64,000 nucleotides of DNA from Mycolicibacterium mengxianglii (GTDB lineage Bacteria; Actinomycetota; Actinomycetes; Mycobacteriales; Mycobacteriaceae): assembly GCF_015710575.1 (NCBI RefSeq), contig NZ_CP065373.1, forward strand, positions 4,278,001 through 4,342,000. The letters run 5' to 3'. Position numbers and translations under genes: made by a program. Below the pieces are notes generated by a model. That model was not told the origin of the DNA. It made no database searches and saw only the letters and a program-made list of their open reading frames with translations. Of the stretch, positions 28,267 to 47,008 are shown piece by piece (the stretch's first letter is position 1; each line of letters opens with the position of its first letter).

Positions 28267-31890
<3,624 letters not shown>

Positions 31891-32253: not shown

Positions 32254-32275
32254 AACTGTTCAACAATAGGACAGT
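32254..32275. promoter_or_regulatory. GntR-type operator candidate, site 1
   Basis: Read on the minus strand this is ACTGTCCTA-T-TGTTGAACA-G-TT, containing the 9-bp palindrome TGTTGAACA. It matches site 2 at 41216-41237 in 20 of 22 positions. It lies 68 bp upstream of the aldehyde dehydrogenase gene that heads the catabolic island. Confidence 0.65.
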
Positions 32276-32342
32276 GTGCGGGCTCACCCTGTGGTCTGCC
32301 CCGCATCCGCCCACCCCGACCCTCCTGGGAGCACCCACAACC

Positions 32343-33776
32343 ATGGCTGAAGTCCAGCTCATGCACATCGCCGGCGAGCAGACCGGCGCCGCCGACGGCA
32401 CCTGCGAACCGGTGATCAACCCGGCCGACGGCGCGCAGATCGCCACCGTGCCGGTCGCCGGCGCCGCCGACGTCGACCGCGCGGTCGCCGCGGCTGAGGA
32501 TGCTTTCCCCGGGTGGGCGGCGACCACCCCCGGCCAGCGGGGCGAACTGTTGCTGGAACTGGCCCAGCGGTTGCACGCCCATGCCGAGGAATTCGCTCAG
32601 CTCGAGTCCCGCAACGTCGGCAAGCCCATCTCGGTGGCCCGGGAGGAGATCCCGTTCGGAGTCGACAACATGCGGTTCTTCGCCGGTGCCGCCCGGGTGC
32701 TCGACGGCCGGGCCGCCGGTGAGTACTCGCCGACACACACCAGCTTCATCCGCCGGGACCCGCTGGGCGTGGTCGGCAGCGTCGCCCCGTGGAACTTCCC
32801 GCTGCTGATGGCCATCTGGAAGATCTGCCCGGCGCTGATGACCGGCAACACCCTGGTGCTCAAGCCCAGCGAGCAGACTCCCCTGACCACGCTGCGGCTG
32901 GCCGAACTCGCCGCGGACCTGTTCCCGCCGGGGGTCTTCAATGTGGTCACCGGCCACGGCGACACCGTGGGCCAGGCTCTGGTGTCGCACCCGCGGGTAC
33001 GGATGACGTCGCTGACCGGTGACACCAGCACCGGCAAGCTGGTGGCGCGCGCCGGGGCCGCGAACCTGAAACGGCTGCACCTCGAACTGGGCGGTAAAGC
33101 CCCGGTGCTGGTGTTCGACGACTGCGATCTCGAGCTGGCGATCGCCAAGATCTGCGAGGGCGGGTACGGCAACTCCGGCCAGGATTGCATGGCCGCGTCC
33201 CGGGTGTACGTCGAGGACGGCATCTACGACGAGTTCGTCGCCGAGCTCACCCGCGCGGTGTCCAAGGTAGCCATGGGCGCACCGCAGGACGAACACACCG
33301 AGATGGGGCCGGTGATCTCGGCCAGGCAGCGCGACCGGATCGCCGGCTTCGTCGAGCGGGCCACGGCGTCGGGCCCGGCGGCGCTGGCGACCGGCGGCCC
33401 CGCGGCCGGCCCCGGCTTCTGGTATCAGCCCTCGCTGGTGGTCGACGCGCCGCAGGACTCCGAGATCGTCCAGAAAGAGGTGTTCGGCCCGGTGGTCACC
33501 ACCACCCGGTTCCGCGGCGAGGAGCAGGCCTTCTCCTGGGCCAATGACGTCGAATACGGCTTGGCCGCTTCGGTTTTCACTCGCGATGTGTCCCGCGCGA
33601 TGCGCGCCGCCCGGGTACTGCAGTTCGGCACGGTGTGGATCAACGACCACCTGCCGATCGTGGCCGAAATGCCGCACGGCGGCTTCAAGCAGTCCGGTCA
33701 CGGCAACGACATGTCGATCTATTCGCTCGAGGAGTACACGGAGATCAAGCACGTCATGATCCGTCTCGCTTCGTGA
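32343..33776 (+). CDS. Aldehyde dehydrogenase (aminobutyraldehyde dehydrogenase-like)
   Basis: 477 residues from ATG 32343; in-frame sequence further upstream covers the operator and is not coding. NAD(P)-dependent ALDH fold: VAPWNFPLLMAIWKICPALM, the NAD loop SLTGDTSTGKLV, general-base Glu in LHLELGGKAPVLV, and catalytic Cys282 in GNSGQDCMAASRV. The GQDC pattern and EYGLAASVFTRDVSRAMR resemble gamma-aminobutyraldehyde and related omega-amino-aldehyde dehydrogenases. It probably oxidises an amino-aldehyde product of this cluster to its acid. First gene of the island, preceded by the GntR-type box. Confidence 0.9.
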   Translation: MAEVQLMHIAGEQTGAADGTCEPVINPADGAQIATVPVAGAADVDRAVAAAEDAFPGWAATTPGQRGELLLELAQRLHAHAEEFAQLESRNVGKPISVAREEIPFGVDNMRFFAGAARVLDGRAAGEYSPTHTSFIRRDPLGVVGSVAPWNFPLLMAIWKICPALMTGNTLVLKPSEQTPLTTLRLAELAADLFPPGVFNVVTGHGDTVGQALVSHPRVRMTSLTGDTSTGKLVARAGAANLKRLHLELGGKAPVLVFDDCDLELAIAKICEGGYGNSGQDCMAASRVYVEDGIYDEFVAELTRAVSKVAMGAPQDEHTEMGPVISARQRDRIAGFVERATASGPAALATGGPAAGPGFWYQPSLVVDAPQDSEIVQKEVFGPVVTTTRFRGEEQAFSWANDVEYGLAASVFTRDVSRAMRAARVLQFGTVWINDHLPIVAEMPHGGFKQSGHGNDMSIYSLEEYTEIKHVMIRLAS

Positions 33777-33807
33777 CCGCAGTCCCCCGACAGAACCTTG
33801 GAGACCC

Positions 33808-34158
33808 ATGAGCTCGCCCGCATTTGACGGTGAAGTGTTCGCCGTCAACATGTTCTCGCTGCTACCCGGCGCCGACCCGAAAGAATTCGAACACTTCTCC
33901 ACCCACGTGGACCGGCCCACCTGCCTGGCCTTCGGTGACGTCGTGAAGTCCTTCGACGCCTTCCGGGTCGCCGTCGCTCCCGATGGTGCGCCCGCCGACA
34001 TCGTCGAGGTGATGCACGTCGCCGACTGGGCGAAGTGGGAGCGGCTCCGCGACAACGATCCGGCATTCCGTCCCGTGATGGACGGCTTCAACGCCCTGGT
34101 CGACGTCACCACCGTCCGCACCTGGTTCACCCGCGCAATTTCTGGAGGCACTCCATGA
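33808..34158 (+). CDS. Small REDY/HapK-like alpha-beta barrel protein
   Basis: 116 residues beginning MSSPAFDGEVFAVNMFSLLP and containing FRVAVAPDGAPADIVEVMHV and WERLRDNDPAFRPVMDGFNA. This is the compact dimeric ferredoxin-like pattern of REDY-like/HapK or related ABM-fold proteins. No catalytic residue is evident. It lies 31 bp after the ALDH, and its stop overlaps the next start (ATGA), so it is translationally coupled to the flavoprotein. The family call is tentative; a helper or small isomerase role is possible. Confidence 0.55.
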   Translation: MSSPAFDGEVFAVNMFSLLPGADPKEFEHFSTHVDRPTCLAFGDVVKSFDAFRVAVAPDGAPADIVEVMHVADWAKWERLRDNDPAFRPVMDGFNALVDVTTVRTWFTRAISGGTP

Positions 34159-35891
34159 CGACGTACGACGCCATCATCATCGGCGCCGGCCACAACGGCC
34201 TGATCACCGCCGGGTACCTGGCCAGAGCCGGCAAGAAGGTCCTCGTCGTCGAAGCCCGTGACGTCGTGGGCGGGGCGTGCACCAGCGAAGAGCTCATCCC
34301 GGGGGCCACCTGGTCGTCGTGCGCCTTCATCGCCAGCCTGCTGCGTCCGGAGATCATCGCCGAGCTGGAGCTGGAGCGCTACGGCCTGGAGATGTATCAG
34401 ACCGAGGCCAACGAGGTCAGCATCTTCGGAGACGGCAGCCACCTGTTCATGTGGAAGGACATGGACCGCACGCTCAAGGAGATCGAGAAGTTCTCCAAGC
34501 GCGACGCCCAGGCTTTCCTGGACTTCGGGCTGCGGGTGAAGAAGTTCGCCTCGATCCTGACGCCATTCCTGCTGTCGCCGGCGCCCAGCCGGTCGCAGGT
34601 GTTGGCCGCCTTCGAGGCTGCGGGCGCCGAGGACCTCTTCAACGAGATGGTGCTGTTGTCGACGAAGGATCTGCTGGACCGCTACTTCGATTCCGAGCAC
34701 ATCAAGGGCCTGTTCACCTTCTTCGGGATGATCTCGGTGTGGGGCGGCCCGTCCACCCCCGGCACCGGCTACGTCTACGGCCACCACTCCGTCGGCGAAT
34801 TCAAGGGCACGTTGGGCCAGTGGGGATTCGTCAAGGGCGGCATGGGCGGCATCACCCAGGCGTTGGCCCGCAGCGCCCAGGCCCACGGCGCCGAGATCAG
34901 GCTGAGCTCACCGGTGCGTCAGGTGGTGCTGACCAAGGGGCAGGCCACCGGTGTGCAGCTCGTCAGTGGCGAGACCCTCTCGGCGCGCACGGTGATCTCC
35001 AATCCCGACCCGCAGCGCTCCATGCTCGAGCTGCTGCCGCCGGGCGCGGTGGACGCCAAGCTGACGGCGAAGCTGCAGAACTACGACGCCCGCGGTTCCA
35101 TGGCCCGCATCCACCTGCTGATCGACGAGCTGCCTGACTACGTCGGCTTCACCGCCGGCGAATTCGGCCCGCAGCATCAGGCGCAGGCCATCCTCGGTGC
35201 CTCGATCGAGAACTTCGAACTGGCGTGGGAGGCGCAGCGGCGCGGCGAGATCCCGGACGATTTCGTCATCGAGGCGGTCATCCAGTCCACCCACGACGAC
35301 ACCCTGGCCCCGGCCGGTAAGCACACCATGACCCTTGGTGTGCAACAACTTCCGTTCGAGTTGGCCGGCACCGACTGGGATTCGATCCGGGAGGAGTGGG
35401 CGGACCGGGTGCTCGAGGTGTTGTTCCGGTACGCGCCGAATCTGCGCCACCACATCCTGGAGCGGGTCATCATCACGCCGAAGGATCTCGAGCGCGATTA
35501 CGGCCTGACCGGCGGCAACATCTTCCACGGCGCGATGTTCTTCGACCAGCTGTTCAACAACCGGCCCACCCCGGAGCTGGCCGACTATCGCACCACCGTC
35601 GGCAATTACTACCTGTGTGGCTCGGGAACCCATCCCGGCGGCGGTGTCATGGGCGCCAACGGTCACAACGCCGCCAAGGTCGTCATCGCCGACCTCAACG
35701 GCACCCCGGCGCCGACAGCCACCCGCGTCGGCCCCGCACCCAAGGCCGGGGTCATCGACAGGGCGATGGAGACGGTGATGGATACCAAGGCCGGCAAGAA
35801 GCTCGGTTACACCGTGGCCAGCACTCCGGCACTGCGCAAGGTCGTCAAGTTCGCTGCCCGCAGCGACAGCTCTCGCAACTCCCCCCGTTAA
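34155..35891 (+). CDS. Phytoene desaturase-like FAD oxidoreductase (PYROXD2-like)
   Basis: 578 residues from ATG 34155 (4-bp overlap with the preceding stop). The N-terminal FAD Rossmann motif is DAIIIGAGHNGLITAGYLAR, followed by VVEARDVVGGACTSEELIPG. A middle domain carries GYVYGHHSVGEFKGTLGQWG and FVKGGMGGITQALARSAQAH. The C-terminal FAD contact is YYLCGSGTHPGGGVMGANGH. This is the PYROXD2/CrtI-like class, not a carotenoid locus, since no phytoene genes are present. It may oxidise an amine or C-C bond in the pathway. A basic tail of about 50 residues follows the FAD domain. Confidence 0.85.
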   Translation: MTTYDAIIIGAGHNGLITAGYLARAGKKVLVVEARDVVGGACTSEELIPGATWSSCAFIASLLRPEIIAELELERYGLEMYQTEANEVSIFGDGSHLFMWKDMDRTLKEIEKFSKRDAQAFLDFGLRVKKFASILTPFLLSPAPSRSQVLAAFEAAGAEDLFNEMVLLSTKDLLDRYFDSEHIKGLFTFFGMISVWGGPSTPGTGYVYGHHSVGEFKGTLGQWGFVKGGMGGITQALARSAQAHGAEIRLSSPVRQVVLTKGQATGVQLVSGETLSARTVISNPDPQRSMLELLPPGAVDAKLTAKLQNYDARGSMARIHLLIDELPDYVGFTAGEFGPQHQAQAILGASIENFELAWEAQRRGEIPDDFVIEAVIQSTHDDTLAPAGKHTMTLGVQQLPFELAGTDWDSIREEWADRVLEVLFRYAPNLRHHILERVIITPKDLERDYGLTGGNIFHGAMFFDQLFNNRPTPELADYRTTVGNYYLCGSGTHPGGGVMGANGHNAAKVVIADLNGTPAPTATRVGPAPKAGVIDRAMETVMDTKAGKKLGYTVASTPALRKVVKFAARSDSSRNSPR

Positions 35892-35897
35892 TCCTGC

Positions 35898-35946
35898 GAT
35901 TTCGGCGCGCTGGCCGTCGCTCAGCGGTCGAAATCGCGCCGAAATC
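35898..35946. repeat. Palindrome family A, copy 3
   Basis: 12-bp arms GATTTCGGCGCG (35898-35909) and its complement (35935-35946) around CTCAGCGG, as in copies 1 and 2. It starts 6 bases after the flavoprotein stop and ends 18 bases before the permease ATG, so it may dampen read-through within the island. Confidence 0.7.
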
Positions 35947-35964
35947 ACCCGGAAAGGACCCGCC

Positions 35965-37461
35965 ATGCTCCCTCAGGATGACCCCCAGTCGCTGGCTACT
36001 CCGCTGGCGACGGCCAAAGACTCCCCCGACGGCTCGTCGCTGGCGCGCAATCAGATCGGCGTGCTGGGCATCGTGTTCTTCGTCGTCGCGGCCGCGGCAC
36101 CACTGACCGTGGTGGTGGCGCTGTTCCCGGTGATCATCGGCTCCGGCAACGGTGTCGGCATCGCGGGCGCGTTCGTACTGGTGGCGGTGGTGCTGACCAT
36201 CTTCGCGGTCGGTTACGTCGCGATGAGCAAACACATCACCAACGCCGGCGCCTTCTACGCCTTCATCACCCGGGGGTTGGGACGGCCGGTGGGCCTGGGT
36301 TCGGCGTCGTTGGCGATTTTCGCCTACAACGCGATCCAGCTCGGTGTCATCGGCGGGTTCGGTTACTACGCAGCAGAATTCGTGACCAAACACAGCGGGG
36401 TCGCCATCCCCTGGTGGGTGTTCTCTTTCATCGCGATGGGCGCGTCACTGTTTCTGGGCATCCGGCAGATCCACGCCGGAGCGCGGGTGTTGGCGGTGCT
36501 GCTGACGTTGGAGACGGCGATCATCCTGATCCTCAACATCGGCATCCTGTTCAATTCGCCCACCCCGATCAGCGACTACTCGTTTGAACCGTTCGCGCCG
36601 TCAGCGGTGCTCGCCGGCGCCATCGGGGTGGCGCTGATGTTCGCCCATGCCTCCTTCATCGGCTTCGAGGGCACCGCCATCTACGGTGAGGAAGCCAAGG
36701 ACCCCAAGCGGACGGTGCCGCGCGCCACCTACGCCTCGGTGATCTTCATGGGTGTGTTCTACGCCGTGACCGCCTTCCTGATCGTCAACGCCGTCGGTGT
36801 CGGTAACGTCGTCGATCTGGCCGGAACCGAAGGTGGCAACCTGGTTTTCGCGGTCAGCGACTCCATCCTGGGCCGGGTCGGCACCGAGGCGTTCCAGCTG
36901 CTGGTCATCACCAGCCTCTTCGCCGCCATCCTGACGTTCCACAACAACGTCGCCCGCTACCTGTACTCGCTGGGCCGCCAGGGAGTGATCTGGTCGAAGC
37001 TGGGCACCACACATCCGACCCGCAAGTCGCCGGCGCTGGCCTGCTACGTCCAGATCGCCATGGTGGCTGTGGTGGTCGCGATCTTCGCGGTGTTCGGCCT
37101 GGATCCCTACACCACACTGTTCACCTGGTGGACCGGCGTGGGTGCGGCGGCGATCATCCTGCTGCAGACCATCGCCAGCATCGCGATCTTTGTGTTCTTC
37201 CGCCGCTCCGATGTCGACAAGCGACCGTGGAACACCTTCATCGCCCCGCTGCTCGGCATCGCCGGTCTGCTGCCGTTCCTGTACTACGCGCTCACCGGTA
37301 TGGACGTCCTGCTGGGCGCCGGTGGCTGGTTGCAGGTGCTGTTCACCGGCATGCTGTTCGCGTCGCTGGCCATCGGCGTCATCGGCGCCTACGTGATCAA
37401 GGCCCGCTCCCCACAACGATATGCGCAACTGAACTCCACACTGGGCGACCGTCTCGCCTGA
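35965..37461 (+). CDS. APC-superfamily amino acid/amine permease
   Basis: 498 residues with about 12 membrane segments; start ATG 35965 with GGAAAGGA upstream. Helix 1 region: SLARNQIGVLGIVFFVVAAA then PLTVVVALFPVIIGSGNGVG. The conserved FIGFEGTAIYGEEAKDPKRT lies near residue 230. A soluble N-terminus of about 25 residues is seen. It probably imports the amino compound degraded by the downstream kinase/phospho-lyase fusion, 36 bp away. Substrate not readable from sequence. Confidence 0.88.
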   Translation: MLPQDDPQSLATPLATAKDSPDGSSLARNQIGVLGIVFFVVAAAAPLTVVVALFPVIIGSGNGVGIAGAFVLVAVVLTIFAVGYVAMSKHITNAGAFYAFITRGLGRPVGLGSASLAIFAYNAIQLGVIGGFGYYAAEFVTKHSGVAIPWWVFSFIAMGASLFLGIRQIHAGARVLAVLLTLETAIILILNIGILFNSPTPISDYSFEPFAPSAVLAGAIGVALMFAHASFIGFEGTAIYGEEAKDPKRTVPRATYASVIFMGVFYAVTAFLIVNAVGVGNVVDLAGTEGGNLVFAVSDSILGRVGTEAFQLLVITSLFAAILTFHNNVARYLYSLGRQGVIWSKLGTTHPTRKSPALACYVQIAMVAVVVAIFAVFGLDPYTTLFTWWTGVGAAAIILLQTIASIAIFVFFRRSDVDKRPWNTFIAPLLGIAGLLPFLYYALTGMDVLLGAGGWLQVLFTGMLFASLAIGVIGAYVIKARSPQRYAQLNSTLGDRLA

Positions 37462-37497
37462 TTGCGCTGTCCTCCAACATATTCGAAGGGACGTTTC

Positions 37498-40485
37498 ATG
37501 TCAGCCGACGGTGTCGTCGACTTACGCCGGCCGGAGCCGCTCGAGCCGGACGAGGCGCTCGAGGTGGTCTCCAGCGCTTTCGGGTTGGCCGTTTCGCACC
37601 CGGTGACCTTGGGTGGCGAGTTCGACCAGAACCTGCGTGTCACCGATCCGACGGGTCGGCATTACCTGGTGAAGGTGTCCGCGCTGCCCGACGCCGGTCC
37701 GTCCACCGCCGATTGGCATGAGCGGATCCTGCTGCACTTGCAGACGACGGCACCCGAATTGCCGCTGCCCCGGCTGATTCCGGCCCTCGGCGGTCACCGG
37801 TACGTCATCGCGCCGACCAGCAAGGGCGACCGGATGTTCCGGGTGTTGTCCTGGCTGACCGGAGCGCCGCTGGCCGAGCAGGAGCACTCCGACGAACTGC
37901 TCGGCGAGCTGGGCCGCGTCGCGGGCCTGGTGTCCAATGCGTTGGCCTCGATGCCGGAGCCGTCCACCGCGATCACCCACGACTGGGACATGCGGCGGGC
38001 CCGCGATGTGGTGGACCGCAGCATCGGCGCCGTCGACGACCCGCAGCAACAAGCTGATGTCTCCGAAGTCATGCGGTGGTTCGACACCATCGAGCCCCTG
38101 CTGGCCGACCTGCCCCGCGGGGTGGCCCACCAGGATCTCAACGACTCCAACATCCTGGCGACCACCGATCCCGACGGCCGCCAGCGGATCAGCGGTGTGC
38201 TCGACATTTACGACGCCCTCTATACCGCGCGGGTGGCGGAACTGGCCGTCGCGACCGGTTATGCGCTGGTGCGCAAACAGGATCCGATGCACGTCGCGCA
38301 ACTGGTGGTGGCCGGGTTCAACGCGGTGGCCCCGTTGACCGATGATGAACTGGCCGCGGTATTTCCGCTCGCCGCGGCCCGGTTGGCCATGAACGCGGTC
38401 ACCTGGACCCAGCGCAACGCCAACACCCGCAATGACCATGGCGCCCGACGGATGCAACACACCTGGCCGGCGCTGGCGAAGGTCGCCCGCATCGATCCTG
38501 ACTACGCCGAGGCCGCGCTGCGGGTGGCGTGTGGCCGGCCGGCCCATCCGGATGCCCGCCGGGTGGCGGCGGCGGTTGCCACGCCTGCGGCACCCTGGTC
38601 GACGGCGGAAAGGTCCGCGGTGCCCGTGGACACCGGCACGGCCAGTGATCTTTTCGACGTCATCAACTGGGACCAGCCTGCGGAGGTCGGCCGGGCCGTC
38701 GACGGTCTGCTCGGCAGCCGCGCCGACGGGTTCGGTGTCATCGATCATCTGCGGCCCAATCTGCTGTGGGCCGGGCAGCGCGGTGTCGGGGCCGACGAGC
38801 CCGCGACCACCACCCTCGGTACCCGCCTGTTGCTGCGCGAGGGCGACCCGGTGACCTGCCCGCTGGGCGGCGTCATCGAAACCGGTGACGGATTGGTGCT
38901 GCGCCACGATGTGGTCGACGACGACGGCCCGCTGACGTTTCGCACCCACTGGCACGGGTTGAGGCCGACCGCCTCGGGTCCCGACGTTGCCGCGGGCGCC
39001 GCACTGGGCAGCGCGCACGGCGACGCGGGTGACGGGCTGGGAACCGCTGTCGGCGTGTCTGTTTCCCTTGCCCGCCGGCACCGTCCCGGGGCCGGTTGGC
39101 CGGAACGGGTCACTCCGGGTGCGGCAGCGGTGTTCGCTGAACTGTCTCCGGATCCAGCCGCACTGCTCGGGCTCGAACGTGCCTCGGCGAGTACCTTGCG
39201 CGCCCAGAACGTGCTGTCGATCCGGCGTGAGCGGCTGGCCAGTTCGCAGCGGGCCTACTACCGGGCGCCGATGAATCTGCAACGGGGGCGCGGGGTGTGG
39301 CTGTACGACGAGGACGGCTACGGCTATCTGGATTCGTTGAACAACGTCACCCATGTCGGCCATGCCGATCCCCGGGTGGCCGAGGCGTCCCGGCGTCAGA
39401 TGAACAAGCTGAACACCAACAGCCGCTTCCTCTACGAGGGCATCTCGACCTACGCCCAGAAACTGACCGACACGTTGCCCGACCCGCTGAATGTGGTGTT
39501 CTTCGTCTGCACCGGCAGCGAGGCCAACGATCTGGCCGTGCGAATCGCGCGGCAGGTCACCGGCCGCGCCGACATCGCGATCATCGACGGCGCGTATCAC
39601 GGCAACACCGGTGTGGTGACCGGACTTTCACCCAACCGCTACAAAGGCCCCGGTGGCGCGGGCGCTCCCCCGACGACTCACGAGGTGATGATCCCGGACC
39701 GCTACCGGGGACCGTTCGGCTACGACGACCCCGATGCGGGCAGTAAGTACGGCGCCGAAGCGGCCCGGCTGTTCGACGACATGGTGAGTTCGGGTCACCC
39801 GCCTGCGGCATTTTTGGCCGAATCGTTGATGGGTACGGCAGGCAATATCGTCTTCCCGGACGGTTTCCTGGCGACCGCGTTCGCCGCTGCCCGGGCAGCC
39901 GGGGCTCTGGTGATCTCCGATGAGGTGCAGGTCGGAGTCGGGCGCATGGCCGACACCTTCTGGGGGTTCGAACTCGGCGGTGTGGTCCCCGATATCGTGA
40001 CGATGGGTAAGCCACTGGGCAACGGCCACCCGCTGGCCGCCGTGGTGACCACCCGGGAGATCGCCGACGCGTTCGACACGGGCATGAAGTACTTCAACAC
40101 TTTTGGCGGCAACCCGGTGTCGTGCGCTATCGGCAGCGCGGTGTTGGACATCGTGCTCGATGACGGGCTGCAGCAGCATGCAGGCGAGGTGGGCCGCTAC
40201 TTCGCCGACAGCCTGCGTCAGGTGCAGCGACGCCGGCCGATCATCGGGGACGTGCGTGGGCAGGGCCTGTATCTCGGGGTGGAGCTGGTCCGCGACCGTG
40301 ACACCAAAGAGCCCGCCAAGGCCGAAGCATTCGAGGTGACCGAGCTGATGAAGGCCGAAGGTGTCATCGTCTTCCCCAACGGGGTCCATGACAATGTGCT
40401 GAAGATCAAGCCGCCCATGATCTTCCAGCGCGAGCACGTCGACATCTACTGCGAGGCACTCGACCGGGTGCTGAGCCGGCTGTAG
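37498..40485 (+). CDS. Kinase / M23-like / class III PLP phospho-lyase fusion
   Basis: 995 residues from ATG 37498 (GAAGGGA upstream). Residues about 15-370 are an APH-fold small-molecule kinase: Brenner motif HQDLNDSN (His211, Asp213, Asn218) and metal Asp236 in GVLDIYDAL, most like hydroxylysine/homoserine-type kinases. Residues about 400-550 resemble an M23/LytM beta domain ([20 protein letters not shown], then THWHGL). Residues about 565-995 are a class III PLP enzyme of the ethanolamine-phosphate/phosphohydroxylysine phospho-lyase group: [51 protein letters not shown] and Lys838 in [10 protein letters not shown]. It would phosphorylate an amino alcohol and then eliminate phosphate and ammonia to an aldehyde. 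Confidence 0.9.
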
Positions 40486-40509
40486 CGGGCTCGGCTTCCC
40501 GGCCAGACC

Positions 40510-41181
40510 TCAGGAGCGGTTGGCGAAGATCGCCGCAACCCGCTGGGCGTTGACGGTGAGGATCTCCTCCAGTACGGCACGGGCCTTGTCGGGATTGCCG
40601 GTTTCCAGGGCGGCCATGATCGAGGTGTGCTCCTCGATCACCCCTTCCTGCGATTCGAATTCGCGGTCCTCGACGGACAACACCACCAGGAAGAACCTCA
40701 GCTCACGGGCGAGCTGAGCGTAGAACTCGTCAATGCGCTTGCTGCCCAACATCGAGACGATCGCGGCGTGGAAGGCGAGGTCCTTCTCGGCGATGGCGGC
40801 GGGGTCATGGGTTTCGTAGGCCGCCATCAGCGCATGCAGGGCCGCGCGCACCGGCGCGAGCTCCTCAGGGGTCCGGGGAGTGGCCGCCGCGGACAGCTCC
40901 AGGGAGATGCGGGCACGGTAGAGCTCGGCGAGGTCTTCCTGCGACGGGTCGACGACGGCGGCGCCATGGTGCATCGTGTGGCGCACCAGCCCGCCGGCTT
41001 CGAGCATCCGCACCGCCTCGCGGACGGTGTTACGCGAAATACCCAGGGACGCAGCGATTGTGCTTTCCCGGATCGGCGCCCCGGGCGCCATCTCGCCTCG
41101 CATGATGGCGTCGCTCAGGCCGTCGGCCACCTGCTGGGCGGTACTGGTACGACGCAGCGTCAGGTTTTCGACAGGATTCAT
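40510..41181 (-). CDS. GntR-family regulator, FCD (FadR) subgroup
   Basis: 223 residues from ATG 41181; a GTG at 41208 would add nine residues but lies closer to the operator. The GntR winged helix (about 8-75) contains QQVADGLSDAIMRGEMAPGA, then LGISRNTVREAVRMLEAGGL. An all-helical FCD ligand/metal domain (about 85-215) follows, with AELYRARISLELSAAATPRT and KDLAFHAAIVSMLGSKRIDE. It is divergent from the FAD/Fe-S dehydrogenase and convergent with the fusion gene. A 22-bp operator-like site in its own promoter also precedes the island's first gene, so it probably controls the whole set. Confidence 0.92.
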   Translation of the reverse strand: MNPVENLTLRRTSTAQQVADGLSDAIMRGEMAPGAPIRESTIAASLGISRNTVREAVRMLEAGGLVRHTMHHGAAVVDPSQEDLAELYRARISLELSAAATPRTPEELAPVRAALHALMAAYETHDPAAIAEKDLAFHAAIVSMLGSKRIDEFYAQLARELRFFLVVLSVEDREFESQEGVIEEHTSIMAALETGNPDKARAVLEEILTVNAQRVAAIFANRS

Positions 41182-41215
41182 GACCCAATAATAGGCGATT
41201 GCGTTCACTAGCTAT

Positions 41216-41237
41216 ACTGTCCTACTGTTGAACAATT
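41216..41237. promoter_or_regulatory. GntR-type operator candidate, site 2
   Basis: ACTGTCCTA-C-TGTTGAACA-A-TT, 20 of 22 identical to the complement of site 1 at 32254-32275, with the TGTTGAACA core. It lies in the divergent spacer 35 bp upstream of the GntR start and 77 bp before the FAD/Fe-S dehydrogenase, well placed for autoregulation. Confidence 0.7.
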
Positions 41238-41313
41238 CGCTAGATTTGCAGAACCTCAGCGGCGCTCACCGCCCCGGTGACCCCACACATCACCCACGTA
41301 CCCTCAGGTAACG

Positions 41314-44211
41314 ATGACGCAGCAGCTACGGCCCACCGATGTCGATCCCGCATCCGCTCGCGCGGCTCTGGACCGGCTGGATGTCCCGATCGATCACACC
41401 GCACGCACCCGGGCGCAGTTCGCCTACGACGCCTCCCATTACCGGGTGGCGCCGCTGGCCGTCGCCTTCCCCCGATCCGTCACCGATGTGGTGGAACTGC
41501 TGGAGGTGTGCCGCCGGCACGCGATCCCGGTGATCCCGCGTGGTGGCGGAACGTCCATGGCCGGCAACGCAATCGGGCCCGGGCTGGTGCTGGACTTCTC
41601 CCGGCACATGAACGAGGTGCTGCACCTCAACCCGCAGCGCCGGCTGGCCGTCGTCCAACCGGGGGTGGTCCTCGACGACCTGCAGCGGCTGGCACGTCCA
41701 CACGGCCTGGAGTTCGGGCCGGACCCGTCGTCGCACAGCCGGGCCACCCTGGGCGGCATGATCGGCAACGACGCCTGCGGCAACCACTCGGTACGGCACG
41801 GCCGCACCGTCGCCCATGTCCGTGAGCTCGAGTTGGTACTGGCCGACGGCACCCACGTGCACGCCGGACCTGACGGGCTGCGGCCGGCCACCGCCGAGCA
41901 CGCCGACCGGGTGGCCGAACTCAATGCCCAGTTGCGAGAACTGGTGTCGGACAACCTCGGTGCGCTCCGCACCGAGCTGGGACGGATCAACCGCCAGGTG
42001 TCGGGCTACCAACTGCACCATCTGCTGCCGGAGCACGGGTTCGACGTGGCCAAGATGCTGGTGGGTTCTGAGGGCAGCTGTGCGGTGGTGGTGGCGGCCA
42101 CGGTCGATCTGGTGCCCGTCGCGCCCACGGCGCTGCTGATCGCGGTCGGCTACCCCGACGTGGTCGCCGCCGCCGACGATGTGCCGACCATCCTGGAGTA
42201 CTCGCCGGCAGCGGTCGAGGGCATGGACGAGAGCATCGTCACCGCGATGCGTGCCCGCCGCGGCCCGGACGCGGTGGCGGGCCTACCCGACGGTGGCGCA
42301 TGGCTTTTCGTCGACCTCGACGGCGATGACGTCACCGAAGTGGCGCAACGCGCCGAGGAACTGGTACGGCGGCTCCGCGACCAGGGCAATCTGACCGACG
42401 CACGGGTGGTTCCGGACCCGGCTCAGCGCGCGTCCCTGTGGCGGGTCCGCGAAGACGGTGCCGGTTTGTCCGCCCGCTCCCCCGACGGTGGCCAGACGTG
42501 GACGGGCTGGGAAGACTCCGCCGTCGCGCCGGCCGACCTGCCCGCCTACCTGCGGGACTTCCGGCAGTTGCTCGACGAGCACGGCCGAAAGGGCGTGATG
42601 TACGGGCACTTCGGCGCCGGTTGCATTCACGTCCGCATCGACTTCGACTTCGGCACCGCCGAGGGTGTGGCGGACATGTCCGCGTTCGTCACCGCGGCCG
42701 CCGAGTTGGTCACCCGCCATGGCGGCACCCTCTCGGGTGAGCACGGCGACGGGCGCGCCCGTGGCGCGCTGCTGAACATCATGTACAGCCCGCAGATGCT
42801 CGGGCTGTTCGGCCGGGTCAAGCAGATCTTCGATCCGGCCCGGCTGCTCAACCCAGGCATCATCGTCGACCCCGTTGCGGTGACCGCCGATCTCGGGCCC
42901 CTGCCGTTGACGGTGCTCACCCCGAGCACATCAGGTTTCGCCTTCCCGCATGACCGCGGCGGGTTCGCCGGCGCTGTCAGCCGGTGCGTGGGAATTGCCA
43001 AGTGCCGCAGCGATGTCGGCGGGGTGATGTGCCCGAGCTATCGGGCCACCCACGATGAGAACCACTCCACCCGCGGCCGGGCCCGCGCCCTGCAGGAGAT
43101 GATGCGCACCGAGCACAGTGTGGTCGACGACGGTTGGCGTTCCGACGATGTGCGCGAGACCCTGGATCTGTGCCTGTCGTGTAAAGCGTGCTCTGCCGAC
43201 TGCCCCGTCGGCGTCGACATGTCCACCTACAAATCGGAGTTCCTGCACCGGCACTACCGCAGGCGCGTCCGTCCGCGCAGCCACTATTCGCTGGGCTGGT
43301 TGCCGGCATTGGCCCGGGTGGCGGGCATCGCGCCGAGGCTGGTGAATGCGTTGGCCGGCAACCGCACTGCGCATCGGGTGATGGCGCGGCTCGGCGGCGT
43401 GACGACCCGGCGCGCGGTGCCGCAGTTCGCTCCCGCCAACGCTGCCATGCGGTCGATGGCCGGGTTCGTGACGACCGGTACCGAGCCCGACGCGGTGCTG
43501 TTCGTCGATACCTTCACCCGCGCCTTCCGACCTGAACTGGCCGGGGCGGCGGCAGCGGTGTTGGCCGACACCGGCGCCGACCTCAGCGCCAGCCAGGGCG
43601 CCTGTTGTGGGCTGACGTGGATCACCACCGGACAACTCGACATCGCCAAGCGGGTACTGCGCCGCACCACGGAGATTCTGGACAAGACCGGTACGGCGCC
43701 GATCGTGGTGCTCGAACCCAGTTGCGCCGCAGCCCTGCACAAGGACCTGCCGGAGCTGGTGCCCACCGCGGCGGCCCGCCGTGTCGCGGCCCGGATCACC
43801 ACCTTCGCCGGTTACCTCGACCAGCGCCTCGACGCCGGCTGGGTGCCGCCACCACTGCCCGATGATGTGGTGCTGCAACAGCATTGCCATGAGTACGCCG
43901 TTTTCTCCCCGACGCTGCAGCAGCGGCTGCTGTCCCGGCTGGGGGTCTCGTCGGTCGACAATGCCACCGGTTGCTGCGGCCTGGCCGGGAACTTCGGCTT
44001 CGAGCGCGAGCACTACGACACCTCGATCGCGGTCGCCGGTCTGGCGCTCAGACCAGCGCTGGACGCGGCGGCGCCGGGCACTCCGGTGCTGGCCGACGGC
44101 TTCAGCTGCCAGACCCAGATCAGCCACCTCAGTGTTGACAATGATTCTCCCCCAACCCATCTCGCGCAGCTCCTGTGGAGCGCGCTGAACCGCAGAGGAC
44201 CCCGCCCATGA
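41314..44211 (+). CDS. FAD/Fe-S D-2-hydroxyacid dehydrogenase (YdiJ/GlcDF-like)
   Basis: 965 residues. The PCMH-type FAD domain (about 35-215) has VIPRGGGTSMAGNAIGPGLV and TLGGMIGNDACGNHSVRHGR. The FAD-oxidase C-terminal domain (about 260-520) has MYGHFGAGCIHVRIDFDFGT and LSGEHGDGRARGALL. Cysteines 558, 564 and 573 belong to the YdiJ-type CRSDVGGVMCPSY region, and a classical 4Fe-4S motif sits at Cys620, 623, 626 and 630. Two CCG modules (Cys764/765, Cys887/888) end the protein. This one-polypeptide order matches bacterial D-2-hydroxyglutarate/D-lactate dehydrogenases feeding electrons to the respiratory chain. Confidence 0.9.
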   Translation: MTQQLRPTDVDPASARAALDRLDVPIDHTARTRAQFAYDASHYRVAPLAVAFPRSVTDVVELLEVCRRHAIPVIPRGGGTSMAGNAIGPGLVLDFSRHMNEVLHLNPQRRLAVVQPGVVLDDLQRLARPHGLEFGPDPSSHSRATLGGMIGNDACGNHSVRHGRTVAHVRELELVLADGTHVHAGPDGLRPATAEHADRVAELNAQLRELVSDNLGALRTELGRINRQVSGYQLHHLLPEHGFDVAKMLVGSEGSCAVVVAATVDLVPVAPTALLIAVGYPDVVAAADDVPTILEYSPAAVEGMDESIVTAMRARRGPDAVAGLPDGGAWLFVDLDGDDVTEVAQRAEELVRRLRDQGNLTDARVVPDPAQRASLWRVREDGAGLSARSPDGGQTWTGWEDSAVAPADLPAYLRDFRQLLDEHGRKGVMYGHFGAGCIHVRIDFDFGTAEGVADMSAFVTAAAELVTRHGGTLSGEHGDGRARGALLNIMYSPQMLGLFGRVKQIFDPARLLNPGIIVDPVAVTADLGPLPLTVLTPSTSGFAFPHDRGGFAGAVSRCVGIAKCRSDVGGVMCPSYRATHDENHSTRGRARALQEMMRTEHSVVDDGWRSDDVRETLDLCLSCKACSADCPVGVDMSTYKSEFLHRHYRRRVRPRSHYSLGWLPALARVAGIAPRLVNALAGNRTAHRVMARLGGVTTRRAVPQFAPANAAMRSMAGFVTTGTEPDAVLFVDTFTRAFRPELAGAAAAVLADTGADLSASQGACCGLTWITTGQLDIAKRVLRRTTEILDKTGTAPIVVLEPSCAAALHKDLPELVPTAAARRVAARITTFAGYLDQRLDAGWVPPPLPDDVVLQQHCHEYAVFSPTLQQRLLSRLGVSSVDNATGCCGLAGNFGFEREHYDTSIAVAGLALRPALDAAAPGTPVLADGFSCQTQISHLSVDNDSPPTHLAQLLWSALNRRGPRP

Positions 44212-45692
44212 CCGCGACGACCGATCAGTTCACCGACTTTTCCGGGTTCACCGAGCAGTTCCCCCGCAACCTGCTGATCGGCGGCGAGTGGGTTGAGGGC
44301 GGCGCCGGGGCGACGATGCCGGTGGAGAATCCGGCGACCGGCGAAACGCTGACGGTGGTGGCCGACGCCGAACCCGCCGATGGGGCCCGGGCGCTGGCGG
44401 CCGCCGTTGCCGCGCAACGGGACTGGGCCCGCACCGCACCGCGCAAGCGGAGTGAGATCCTGCGCGCCGCTTATGATCTGCTGCTGGGGCGGATCGAGGA
44501 TCTGGCGTTGTTGATGACGCTGGAGATGGGCAAGTCGCTCGACGAGGCGCGCGGTGAGGTGCGTTATGCGGCTGAATTCTTCCGCTGGTTCTCCGAGGAG
44601 GCCGTGCGCATCGACGGCGGTTACACCCGGGTGCCCGCCGGCGACAAACGGGCGCTGGTGCTCGCCGCACCGGTGGGGCCGTGCCTGCTGATCACGCCGT
44701 GGAATTTCCCGCTGGCGATGGGCGCCCGCAAGATCGGGCCTGCTATCGCGGCCGGCTGCACGATGGTGCTCAAACCGGCCCCGCAGACGCCGCTGTCATC
44801 CCTGGCGCTGGCGGCCATCCTGATCGAAGCGGGCCTGCCCGCCGGGGTCCTCAACGTGGTGACCACCTCCCGTGCCGGTGAGCTGACCGAACCCCTGCTG
44901 CGCGGCGGTGAGGTGCGCAAGCTGTCGTTCACCGGGTCCACTGCCGTCGGCAAAATCCTGTTGGCGCAATGCGGTTCGGCCGTGGTGCGCACGTCGATGG
45001 AGCTGGGCGGCAACGCTCCGTTCCTGGTGTTCTCCGACGCTGACCTGGACGTCGCCCTTGATGCTGCGATGCAGGCCAAGATGCGCAACATGGGTGAGGC
45101 GTGCACCAGCGCGAACCGGTTTTACGTCCACGAGCGTGTTGCGGCGCCGTTCGCCGAGGAGCTCGCGCGGCGGATGTCGGCGCTGCGGGTGGCGCCGGGG
45201 TGGCTCGAGGGAGCCCAGGTGGGTCCGCTGATCGACGGGGCCAGCCGGGACAAGGTGCAACGCCTGGTACGTGACGCGGTGAGCCGCGGCGCGACCGTGC
45301 TCGCCGGCGGAGGTGCCCCGGAGGGTCCGGGTTACTTCTACAGCCCGACGGTGCTGACCGATGTCGCTGCCGCCAGTGAGCTGTGCAGCGCCGAGATCTT
45401 CGGACCCGTCGCAGCCATCCAGACGTTCAATGAGGACGATGATGTGGTGGCGCTGGCCAACAACACCCCGTGGGGTCTGGTCGGTTATGTCTTCACCCAG
45501 GACGTCGACCGTGCCTTCAATGTCAGCGAGGACCTGAATGTCGGTATGGTGGGCCTGAATTCGGGCATTGTGTCCGATCCTGCGACCCCGTTCGGCGGGG
45601 TGAAGGAGTCGGGGCTCGGGCGTGAAGGCGGCCGCGTCGGAATCGACGAGTTCCTGGACTACAAGCTGATCAGCATGCCGATCCGGCGGTAG
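44208..45692 (+). CDS. Aldehyde dehydrogenase (succinate-semialdehyde dehydrogenase-like)
   Basis: 494 residues from ATG 44208, overlapping the dehydrogenase stop (ATGA). ALDH motifs: ITPWNFPLAMGARKIGPAIA, NAD-loop FTGSTAVGKILL, general-base Glu in SMELGGNAPFLVF and catalytic Cys299 in MGEACTSANRF. The ending SDPATPFGGVKESGLGREGG is typical of the GabD group. Sequence grouping suggests semialdehyde substrates such as succinate, glutarate or aminoadipate semialdehyde. It is the second ALDH in the island, in a different transcription unit from the first. Confidence 0.9.
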   Translation: MTATTDQFTDFSGFTEQFPRNLLIGGEWVEGGAGATMPVENPATGETLTVVADAEPADGARALAAAVAAQRDWARTAPRKRSEILRAAYDLLLGRIEDLALLMTLEMGKSLDEARGEVRYAAEFFRWFSEEAVRIDGGYTRVPAGDKRALVLAAPVGPCLLITPWNFPLAMGARKIGPAIAAGCTMVLKPAPQTPLSSLALAAILIEAGLPAGVLNVVTTSRAGELTEPLLRGGEVRKLSFTGSTAVGKILLAQCGSAVVRTSMELGGNAPFLVFSDADLDVALDAAMQAKMRNMGEACTSANRFYVHERVAAPFAEELARRMSALRVAPGWLEGAQVGPLIDGASRDKVQRLVRDAVSRGATVLAGGGAPEGPGYFYSPTVLTDVAAASELCSAEIFGPVAAIQTFNEDDDVVALANNTPWGLVGYVFTQDVDRAFNVSEDLNVGMVGLNSGIVSDPATPFGGVKESGLGREGGRVGIDEFLDYKLISMPIRR

Positions 45693-45718
45693 CGACCAAC
45701 CGGCAGTCAGAGCAGAAA

Positions 45719-45757
45719 CCGCCCTACCCCGACGGCACAGCAGACGGGGTAGGGCGG
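45719..45757. terminator. Bidirectional terminator between ALDH and mceG
   Basis: A perfect 13-bp inverted repeat CCGCCCTACCCCG (45719-45731) and its complement (45745-45757) in the 75-bp gap between convergent stops. A-rich and T-poor flanks suggest a tail-less hairpin. Confidence 0.8.
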
Positions 45758-45767
45758 AATCAGCGGA

Positions 45768-46850
45768 TCAGGCTTCGCGTTGGGCGGGGATCGACGCGGT
45801 AGGTGCGTCGTCCTCCTCGGTGCGATGGCGCGAGGTGGTGTCATCGCTGGACCCATTGGTTTCGTACCGGTTGGTGCCGTCGAGGTCCTCGCGGATCGCT
45901 TCCTGGGCGGCCGGCGGCAACGAGTGCAGGATTTCCCGCACCCGGGCCTGGCGGCGGCCCACAGCCTGGCGTTCCGGCATGCCAGGGGTTGCCTGGACCT
46001 GCGGCGGCACACCGACGATTTCTTCGACACCGCCGTCGTGGTGACCGGCGTCGACCATGGCCTGCTCTTCGGCCATCTGCGCCTCGTCCTTTTCCTCGGA
46101 CATGCCGATGGGCCCGATACGGCGGCCGTTGAGGAACTGACGCACCACCGGCTCGTCACTGGTCAGCAGCACCTCGCGGGGGCCGAACATGACCAGGTGC
46201 TTGCGGAACAGCATGCCGATGTTGTCGGGCACGGTCCGGGCGATGTTGATGTTGTGCGTGACGATCAGGATGGTGGCGTCGATCTGGGCGTTGATGTCGA
46301 TCAGCAGCTGCGACAGGTACGCCGTACGGACGGGGTCCAGACCGGAGTCGGGCTCGTCGCAGAGGATGATCTGCGGGTCCAGTACCAGCGACCGGGCCAG
46401 CCCGGCGCGCTTGCGCATACCGCCGGAGATCTCGCCGGGGAACTTGGTCTCGTCGCCGCCGAGGCCGACGAGTTCCAGCTTGTCCATCACGACCTGACGG
46501 ATTTCGCTTTCCTTCTTCTTGGTGTGCTCACGCAAGGGGAAGGCGGTGTTGTCGTAGATGTTCATCGAGCCGAACAGCGCGCCGTCCTGGAACATGACGC
46601 CGAACAGGGTCCGGATCTCGTAGAGCTCCTTGGCGGAGCATTCGAGGATGTTGGTGCCGTCGACGATGATCTTGCCGCGCTCCGGGCGCAGCAGACCGAT
46701 CAGGGACTTCAGGAACACCGACTTACCGGTACCGGAGGGGCCCAGGAGGACGCTGACTTCACCCGGCGGGAGATCGAAGGTGACGTCCTCCCAAATTCGC
46801 TGGGATCCGAAGGACTTAGTCAGTCCCTCGACCTGGATACCAATGCCCAC
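45768..46850 (-). CDS. mceG: Mce-transporter ATPase MceG (Mkl)
   Basis: 360 residues from GTG 46850, with GGAAGG seven bases upstream; a GTG at 46892 lacks this. ABC ATPase: Walker A GPSGTGKS near residue 45, Q-loop VMFQDGALFG, signature ISGGMRKRAGLARSLV, Walker B IILCDEPDSGLDP and H-loop IVTHNINIA. Beyond about 250 a C-terminal extension (VRQFLNGRRIGPIGMSEEKD, then an acidic, variable tail) marks MceG, the shared ATPase energising Mce lipid/sterol importers in the cell envelope. Monocistronic here. Confidence 0.95.
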   Translation of the reverse strand: MGIGIQVEGLTKSFGSQRIWEDVTFDLPPGEVSVLLGPSGTGKSVFLKSLIGLLRPERGKIIVDGTNILECSAKELYEIRTLFGVMFQDGALFGSMNIYDNTAFPLREHTKKKESEIRQVVMDKLELVGLGGDETKFPGEISGGMRKRAGLARSLVLDPQIILCDEPDSGLDPVRTAYLSQLLIDINAQIDATILIVTHNINIARTVPDNIGMLFRKHLVMFGPREVLLTSDEPVVRQFLNGRRIGPIGMSEEKDEAQMAEEQAMVDAGHHDGGVEEIVGVPPQVQATPGMPERQAVGRRQARVREILHSLPPAAQEAIREDLDGTNRYETNGSSDDTTSRHRTEEDDAPTASIPAQREA

Positions 46851-47008
46851 ACGAAATCCTTCCGATTCGAAATCACCAAGCCTCCAGCCCACCCGCCTGT
46901 GGCTTGAGTCACTGTAGCGTATGGCGTTACGTCAGTTCGCCGTTGTGTCATTACCTTTATCGACACCGGCGTCCAGCGATGCCGTTACGGTACCCCCCGA
47001 ACAAAACA

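Follow-up and report, generated by a model that had tools for sequence, protein, structure and literature searches.

In vertebrates, 5-hydroxylysine is phosphorylated by the kinase HYKK and then cleaved by the ammonia-phospholyase PHYKPL, which are encoded by separate genes; a permease, a flavoprotein, HapK or YdiJ is not known to accompany this pair. The route from putrescine to succinate proceeds through an amine oxidase, an aminobutyraldehyde dehydrogenase, and succinate-semialdehyde dehydrogenase (SSADH). The class III pyridoxal phosphate (PLP) lyase PbfA, an (R)-1-hydroxy-2-aminoethylphosphonate ammonia-lyase, forms an aldehyde and ammonia (PMC8154272), YdiJ is a D-2-hydroxyglutarate dehydrogenase (PMC9504171), HglS makes D-2-hydroxyglutarate from 2-oxoadipate (PMC7286885), and the Herbaspirillum operon Hrubri_0242-0245 carries hydroxylysine kinase and 4-aminobutyrate aminotransferase annotations side by side on separate genes (PMC13275390). 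Here we analyzed an island of eight genes in a 64,000-nucleotide stretch of the Mycolicibacterium mengxianglii genome (NZ_CP065373.1, positions 4,278,001 to 4,342,000; hereafter the window, in whose numbering positions are given), in which a kinase is fused to a class III PLP domain. All eight genes were confirmed at 32343-45692 from open reading frames (ORFs) and Pfam matches, and the first-pass annotation of this DNA was right about their place, overlaps, and shared operators.

With a probability of about 0.5, we read the island as a catabolic regulon under a GntR/FCD regulator for an imported small hydroxylated amine, composed of an upper and a lower module, in which deamination would occur by phosphorylation and elimination. 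Sequence supports this reading in the gene set, the operators, the phospho-lyase clade, and the replacement of the fusion by a kinase plus a lyase, and we infer the order of the steps and the role of each oxidoreductase. A tentative extension, whose chances we put just short of even, is that this is an undescribed actinobacterial and rhizobial pathway in which a hydroxylated diamine or amino-polyol loses its amine by phosphorylation and elimination, not transamination. Two deeply separate lower modules, one with the fused ETNPPL-like enzyme and one with separate enzymes from another phospho-lyase branch (the split type), each bringing a regulator and a hydroxyacid dehydrogenase of its own, would have been exchanged behind one conserved upper operon. 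The island offers a natural experiment on bacterial phosphate-assisted deamination, in which related species pair the same upper pathway either with a fused kinase-phospholyase or with separate enzymes of another phospho-lyase branch; it would place the PRK06149/PRK06148 proteins, now labelled "aminotransferase" or "hypothetical," in a physiological setting and would give the flavoprotein and HapK families a testable role. No description of this gene cluster was found among the literature titles and abstracts searched, which cover subscription journals thinly.

The kinase/phospho-lyase fusion

The fusion gene (37498..40485, plus strand) encodes an APH-type kinase domain (residues 41-273; PF01636, 62 bits; cut-off, 23) and a class III PLP domain (residues 587-992; Aminotran_3). 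The kinase domain contains HQDLNDSN and LDIYD, which we take to be the catalytic Asp motif of APH kinases, and its match to solved structures in the PDB was marginal (2ppq, E = 0.034). The class III domain aligned end to end with human ETNPPL (6tor), its best-scoring solved relative, and with the bacterial phospholyase 5g4i, presumably from Arthrobacter. In a tree of 33 rows, which included all 16 class III domains found in the M. mengxianglii genome, the window domain, 6tor, and 5g4i fell in one clade of 20 rows (support, 100/99). The 13 rows outside were 12 class III proteins of the same genome, taken as transaminases or their kin by family only, and one protein from another locus (L106); several of these outside branches were long and were flagged by the tree program. 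Within the clade, the window domain grouped with 6tor (9 rows, 100/98), and the split lyases joined 5g4i weakly (86/68) but held together firmly in its absence (10 rows, 99/98). The window domain also keeps the PLP lysine region and the clade motifs NNV, GKPxGNG, and FNTxxGN.

The Pfam name Aminotran_3, and the label "aminotransferase" on a related NCBIfam model, would fit an ordinary transaminase joined to a kinase domain with another role. We consider this highly improbable, since the clade unites the domain with two solved phospho-lyases and excludes 12 other class III proteins of the genome, its GKPxGNG and NNV motifs are present, and kinase and lyase are replaced elsewhere as a pair. Phosphorylation-then-elimination chemistry, as first proposed for this locus, is well supported by sequence, since the domain belongs to this clade and a kinase and a lyase in separate genes stand in for the fusion elsewhere.

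The region between the two domains (residues 307-568) matched no Pfam family, M23 included, at E ≤ 5. Its AlphaFold2 model (predicted local distance difference test [pLDDT], 83) gave three Foldseek matches at E ≤ 0.001, all of them M23/LytM proteins (E = 6e-4 to 8e-4), with modest query template modeling scores of 0.35-0.42 for these top three. In an alignment of 23 rows, none of the invariant or near-invariant positions of this region was a histidine. Because no histidine is conserved over these rows, the domain, lying within about residues 385-570, is probably a degenerate M23-like fold and not a peptidase. The M23 domain named in the first-pass annotation thus stands as a predicted fold and falls as a Pfam family with conserved histidines.

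Four of the 16 class III domains in the genome belong to the phospho-lyase clade: the window fusion, a second APH-class III fusion about 38% identical to it (L103, G000:C1:2114765-2117377, minus strand), and two single-domain enzymes (L104:5919-7244 and L105:5619-7109). The second fusion has an altered phospho-lyase motif, FSSAGGS in place of FNTFGGN, and its reaction may differ from that of the island fusion. The L104 lyase gene adjoins a gene for a permease 32% identical to that of the island.

Fused and split modules across genomes

A search of 396 same-genus genomes found an orthologue of the island flavoprotein in 22, namely that of M. mengxianglii and 21 others at 88-92% identity. The 21 loci were read with about 9 kb on each side, unless the contig ended, and genes were called by tblastn. 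The fusion was present in 3 of the 22 loci (the window, P9-64, and G865), and in 16 the kinase and lyase were encoded by separate neighboring genes, at identities of 65-69% and 82-84%, respectively, to the M. iranicum (L100) copies. In these split loci the lyase is followed by YdiJ and ALDH2; ALDH2, the second of two aldehyde dehydrogenases (ALDHs), was found at ≥62% identity in 13 of the 16, mostly cut by the end of the stretch, and in the others (L100, L138, and L148) the sequence read breaks off within YdiJ or just past it. Two further loci, L151 and L153, end at contig ends; the genome of L151 encodes a lyase at 83% identity on a different contig, and no such lyase was found at E ≤ 1e-80 in the 58% complete genome of L153 (G801). 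The regulator was found in 21 of the 22 loci, in L151 as a half only before the contig end. The exception was L146 (G765), where kinase, lyase, regulator, and YdiJ were not found in the stretch read and no such lyase was found anywhere in the genome at E ≤ 1e-80. This locus, with an upper operon only, no operator, and a permease match spread over two reading frames, looks like a decaying copy. The idea that orthologues of the fusion are widespread in Mycobacteriaceae was rejected: among 151 genomes, only the M. mengxianglii copy exceeded 50% identity, and fusions of about 36-38% identity occurred in at least 4 others.

The upper proteins of fused and split loci were about equally close to the window, with mean identities (fused/split) of 87/85% for ALDH1, 63/66% for HapK, 89/91% for the flavoprotein, and 85/90% for the permease. 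The lower proteins differed by type, with 84/47% for GntR and 73/56% for YdiJ; ALDH2 was omitted because too few rows were full length. In trees of the upper operon, GntR, and YdiJ from 12 of the 22 loci, the mycobacterial upper operons formed one clade (100/100) against those of Pseudonocardia and Streptomyces iranensis. The fused and split types of GntR separated at 100/100 each, and the fused-type YdiJ grouped with Pseudonocardia YdiJ (100/100) and the split-type YdiJ with that of L106 (100/100). The identities and the trees together show that the kinase/lyase, the regulator, and the hydroxyacid dehydrogenase vary as one unit while the upper operon stays the same; we take this as strong sequence evidence for a place of the kinase and lyase in the pathway.

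Two operators lie within the island. Operator 1 (AACTGTTCAACAATAGGACAGT; 32254..32275, plus strand) lies upstream of ALDH1, and operator 2 (41216..41237, minus strand) lies in the divergent promoter region of YdiJ and the GntR/FCD regulator (40510..41208, minus strand; Pfam GntR and FCD). Both were found by inverted-repeat and pattern searches, and they are inverted copies, 22 nucleotides long and 91% alike. With up to one mismatch, TGTTSAACANTA matched four times in the 64 kb, every time at these two sites, against a mean of 0.26 and a maximum of 2 in 100 shuffled controls. The shorter pattern TGTTSWACA was found upstream of ALDH1 in 21 of the 22 same-genus loci, the exception being L146, where regulator, kinase, and lyase were not found nearby. 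It also occurs inside genes, the flavoprotein gene included, with 52 matches over 415,844 bases against a mean of 0.95 for permuted patterns. Since the largest permuted count was 42, it is the upstream position and not the total count that carries the argument. Across the 22 loci the putative operator upstream of ALDH1 thus tracks the regulator, and, because the operators are shared, the eight genes are very probably regulated jointly as one regulon.

Beyond the genus, relatives of the fusion were encoded at 34 loci of the genome_contigs collection, of which 33 actinobacterial ones (L009-L041) were considered and a distant match (L042) was set aside; the identical fusions of L027 and L038 were counted as one organism. 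The core of permease, fusion, ALDH1, HapK, and flavoprotein was found in P9-64, Pseudonocardia (L027 = L038), and S. iranensis, with YdiJ and ALDH2 also in the first two. On plasmids of Rhizobium CIAT894 and Agrobacterium CFBP7129, ALDH1 (54-56% identity, partial), an unfused kinase and lyase in separate genes, a sugar-type ATP-binding cassette (ABC) importer, a hypothetical gene, and the flavoprotein (52-53%) lie in one run. The importer replaces the permease on both plasmids, and the solute-binding protein in Rhizobium has sugar-binding proteins among its relatives. In Rhizobium, the hypothetical gene next to that of the flavoprotein was considered as a HapK counterpart and rejected, as it showed no similarity. 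From these plasmids and the actinobacterial loci, ALDH1, kinase, lyase, and flavoprotein therefore recur together across two phyla. By sequence, the genes are conserved together and probably regulated together, so that the outcome which the first-pass annotation said would refute it, a lack of co-conservation or co-regulation, did not arise; its single regulon is supported by the operators.

A simpler assignment would have the fusion act on ethanolamine or 1-amino-2-propanol, with the remaining enzymes acting on products or on further substrates found in the same surroundings. It is favored by ETNPPL as the best-scoring solved relative, by a weak match of the island permease to ethanolamine permease (36.7 bits; cut-off, 382), and by the lack of an upper module in most of the Streptomyces fusion loci examined. 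We regard it as quite unlikely, because few parts of the island are as well conserved as the flavoprotein and ALDH1, both of which also accompany kinase and lyase on the two rhizobial plasmids.

In 30 of the 33 fusion loci (L010-L041), a conserved gene of about 405 amino acids, PucR-like by eye, lies beside the fusion. Genes that look HAD-like and aspartoacylase-like by eye are also frequent in the Streptomyces loci, as is a gene for a DAO-type flavoprotein, identified from a scan of one member. These predicted neighbors are a different setting for the same enzyme. A gene resembling gamma-glutamyltransferase by eye follows the island in Pseudonocardia (L027:20801-22714) and S. iranensis (L035:16627-18414).

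Proposed route and competing explanations

In the proposed route, the APC-superfamily permease (35965..37461, plus strand; AA_permease_2) would take up the substrate, the flavin adenine dinucleotide (FAD) flavoprotein (34155..35891, plus strand) would oxidize one end to an aldehyde, and ALDH1 (32343..33776, plus strand; Aldedh) would convert the aldehyde to a carboxylate. The kinase domain would phosphorylate the hydroxyl group adjacent to the primary amine that is left, and the class III domain would eliminate phosphate and ammonia to give a terminal aldehyde. ALDH2 (44208..45692, plus strand; Aldedh) would oxidize this aldehyde to a diacid, and the YdiJ-like FAD/Fe-S dehydrogenase (41314..44211, plus strand; FAD_binding_4, FAD-oxidase_C, Fer4, and CCG) would convert a 2-hydroxy(di)acid to an oxo-acid. 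The HapK/REDY-like dimeric alpha-beta barrel protein (33808..34158, plus strand) is placed in the upper module without an assigned step. It matched PF11639 (28.2 bits; cut-off, 25), and the fold matches of its AlphaFold2 model (pLDDT, 91) were led by HapK itself (2jdj), followed by assorted dimeric barrel proteins. A role as sugar mutarotase, which an aldose epimerase beside the flavoprotein in another locus (L075) had brought to mind, found no support in this comparison, as none of the 50 listed fold matches was named mutarotase.

ALDH1 passed the cut-off of the aminobutyraldehyde dehydrogenase model PRK13473 (705 bits against 615) and missed that of the equivalog TIGR03374 (596 against 909), and the best PDB relatives of ALDH2 were SSADHs. 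Because ALDH1 groups with 4-aminobutanal dehydrogenases, ALDH2 is SSADH-like, and the kin of YdiJ act on D-2-hydroxy-diacids, our guess at the most likely substrate is a hydroxylated C4 diamine or amino-polyol of the 2-hydroxyputrescine or amino-tetritol type. The two ALDH families hint at a C4 chain, and the route would then be a hydroxylated counterpart of the one from putrescine to succinate.

Related operons bear on both modules. A second upper operon in the M. mengxianglii genome (L102, G000:C1:3513000-3530000), in which kinase and lyase are absent, encodes an acylating acetaldehyde dehydrogenase, a 4-hydroxy-2-oxovalerate aldolase, a permease (56% identity), a protein labelled TetR-type from a weak Pfam match below the cut-off, ALDH1 (61%), HapK (49%), the flavoprotein (61%), and an IlvD/EDD dehydratase. 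Paralogous flavoproteins at 60-64% identity numbered 35 among the 396 genomes. Twelve further paralogue loci, 11 at 60-64% and one (L163) at 45%, were examined with a crude ORF call; all but L163 showed most of the L102 arrangement, with the dehydratase called in 9. In L075, a Mesorhizobium plasmid, the flavoprotein lies beside the aldose epimerase and a short-chain dehydrogenase/reductase, with a sugar-type importer near. An IlvD/EDD dehydratase thus accompanies the flavoprotein family twice outside the island, adjacent in L102/L101 and with three genes between in L075, and the path of the flavoprotein may therefore run through hydroxy-acids. The dehydratase and aldolase of the paralogous operon point to a polyhydroxylated product, and we infer that the upper module converts an amine or amino-polyol into a hydroxy-acid. 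For the lower module, a role of the YdiJ-ALDH2 pair after deamination is suggested because the pair follows a GABA (4-aminobutyrate)-transaminase-like class III protein in L106 and the lyase in the split loci. The L106 run (L106:2792-18900) contains GABA-transaminase-like, YdiJ-like, ALDH2-like, GntR-like, and ectoine-hydrolase-like genes near a frame matching ectA/ectB and is possibly a (hydroxy)ectoine degradation operon.

An alternative is a secondary-amine substrate. The flavoprotein could cleave a bis(2-hydroxyalkyl)amine or similar compound, as in diethanolamine, releasing a primary amino alcohol together with a hydroxy-aldehyde. The hydroxy-aldehyde would be turned by ALDH1 and the YdiJ-like enzyme into a hydroxy-acid and an oxo-acid (glycolate to glyoxylate), and the amino alcohol would be taken by the fusion and ALDH2 from ethanolamine to acetaldehyde and acetate. 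This scheme gives every enzyme except HapK a role and accounts for two ALDHs and one 2-hydroxyacid dehydrogenase; it fits the grouping of the lyase domain with ETNPPL, the ethanolamine-phosphate enzyme, and the match of the YdiJ-like protein to GlcD (215 bits; cut-off, 568). We still hold it to be unlikely, since ALDHs of the SSADH-like and aminobutyraldehyde-like kinds found here are atypical for acetaldehyde or glycolaldehyde, the YdiJ-ALDH2 pair also stands behind the GABA-transaminase-like protein, and the rhizobial importer is of the sugar type.

The first-pass annotation had instead connected the island with 5-hydroxylysine, which would be phosphorylated and cleaved to aminoadipate semialdehyde and passed through aminoadipate and 2-oxoadipate to D-2-hydroxyglutarate for oxidation by YdiJ. 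The class III phospho-lyase clade and the vertebrate precedent of HYKK and PHYKPL agree with this proposal. HglS (PF07063) was found in 9 of 21 island genomes and was absent from 12, including that of M. mengxianglii (G801 left out), a distribution that argues against HglS as an obligatory step but leaves room for other hydroxylysine routes. The score of the YdiJ-like protein falls far short of the D-2-hydroxyglutarate dehydrogenase cut-off, HapK and ALDH2 have no evident role, the paralogous upper operon has sugar-acid-type enzymes, and the importer in rhizobia is of the sugar type. This link is therefore not supported, and we judge the route improbable.

Several observations weigh against the GntR/FCD-controlled hydroxylated-amine regulon that we prefer. 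ALDH2 misses the SSADH cut-off (TIGR01780, 542 bits against 646), and the YdiJ-like protein reaches 474 of the 1350 bits required by the D-2-hydroxyglutarate dehydrogenase equivalog, in a match over residues 26-601. The best scores of the flavoprotein, in NCBIfam and among solved structures, are to carotenoid enzymes (CrtO, 284 bits; cut-off, 1000), although it also matches Amino_oxidase (68 bits) and is placed in the CrtI/amine-oxidase superfamily; its label "PYROXD2-like" is a name assumed from the first-pass annotation. Parts of the set may be optional: YdiJ, present in 15 of the 16 split loci, was not found in L141, neither YdiJ nor ALDH2 turned up next to the S. iranensis and rhizobial sets, and HapK was not matched on the rhizobial plasmids at E ≤ 0.01. 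In 29 of the 33 fusion loci, the stretch examined, some of it on short contigs, contains no upper module, and more than one pathway may make use of the fusion.

Layout of the island and likeness to known systems

Four-base ATGA overlaps join HapK to the flavoprotein (34155-34158) and YdiJ to ALDH2 (44208-44211). The G+C content of the island, 0.65-0.70, lies inside the range of its flanks (0.61-0.71). An inverted repeat (45712..45764, no strand; inverted-repeat search) between the convergent ALDH2 and ABC ATPase genes is a probable two-way terminator. The neighbors are rpoB (28267-31797, minus strand) and a Mla/Mce-type ABC ATPase gene (45768-46892, minus strand), taken to be mceG. The description of the island as lying between mceG and rpoB is true of the window; judged by the location of the ATPase alone, this adjacency was not seen in 20 other island genomes: in 8 the ATPase shared a contig with the island but lay at least about 0.3 Mb off, and in 12 it was on another contig, which gives no distance. 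The reported lack of microcompartment genes holds for the eight island proteins, the set covered, none of which matched a microcompartment family in Pfam.

Among known systems, human ETNPPL (6tor) and the phospholyase 5g4i resemble the island fusion in the class III domain, over its full length and in all three clade motifs; their chains are single class III domains, whereas in the island protein a kinase domain and a degenerate M23-like domain precede it. The vertebrate HYKK and PHYKPL share the kinase-then-phospholyase logic and, unlike the island enzymes, are encoded separately. The bacterial kinase-class III fusions PRK06148 and PRK06149 match the island fusion over nearly its whole length, at 831 bits (cut-off, 1128) and 731 bits (cut-off, 973), both below the curated cut-offs. 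PbfA eliminates water, whereas the island lyase, which scores 205 bits against the PbfA cut-off of 525, is predicted to eliminate phosphate. YdiJ and the island protein are alike over the FAD part, with the shortfall in score given above. The Herbaspirillum operon, likened here by annotation and not by sequence, differs in having a 2-haloacid dehalogenase and an Lrp regulator. Putrescine catabolism uses related families at both aldehyde steps; the island has a kinase and a phospho-lyase in place of the GABA transaminase, together with an extra HapK and a YdiJ-like enzyme.

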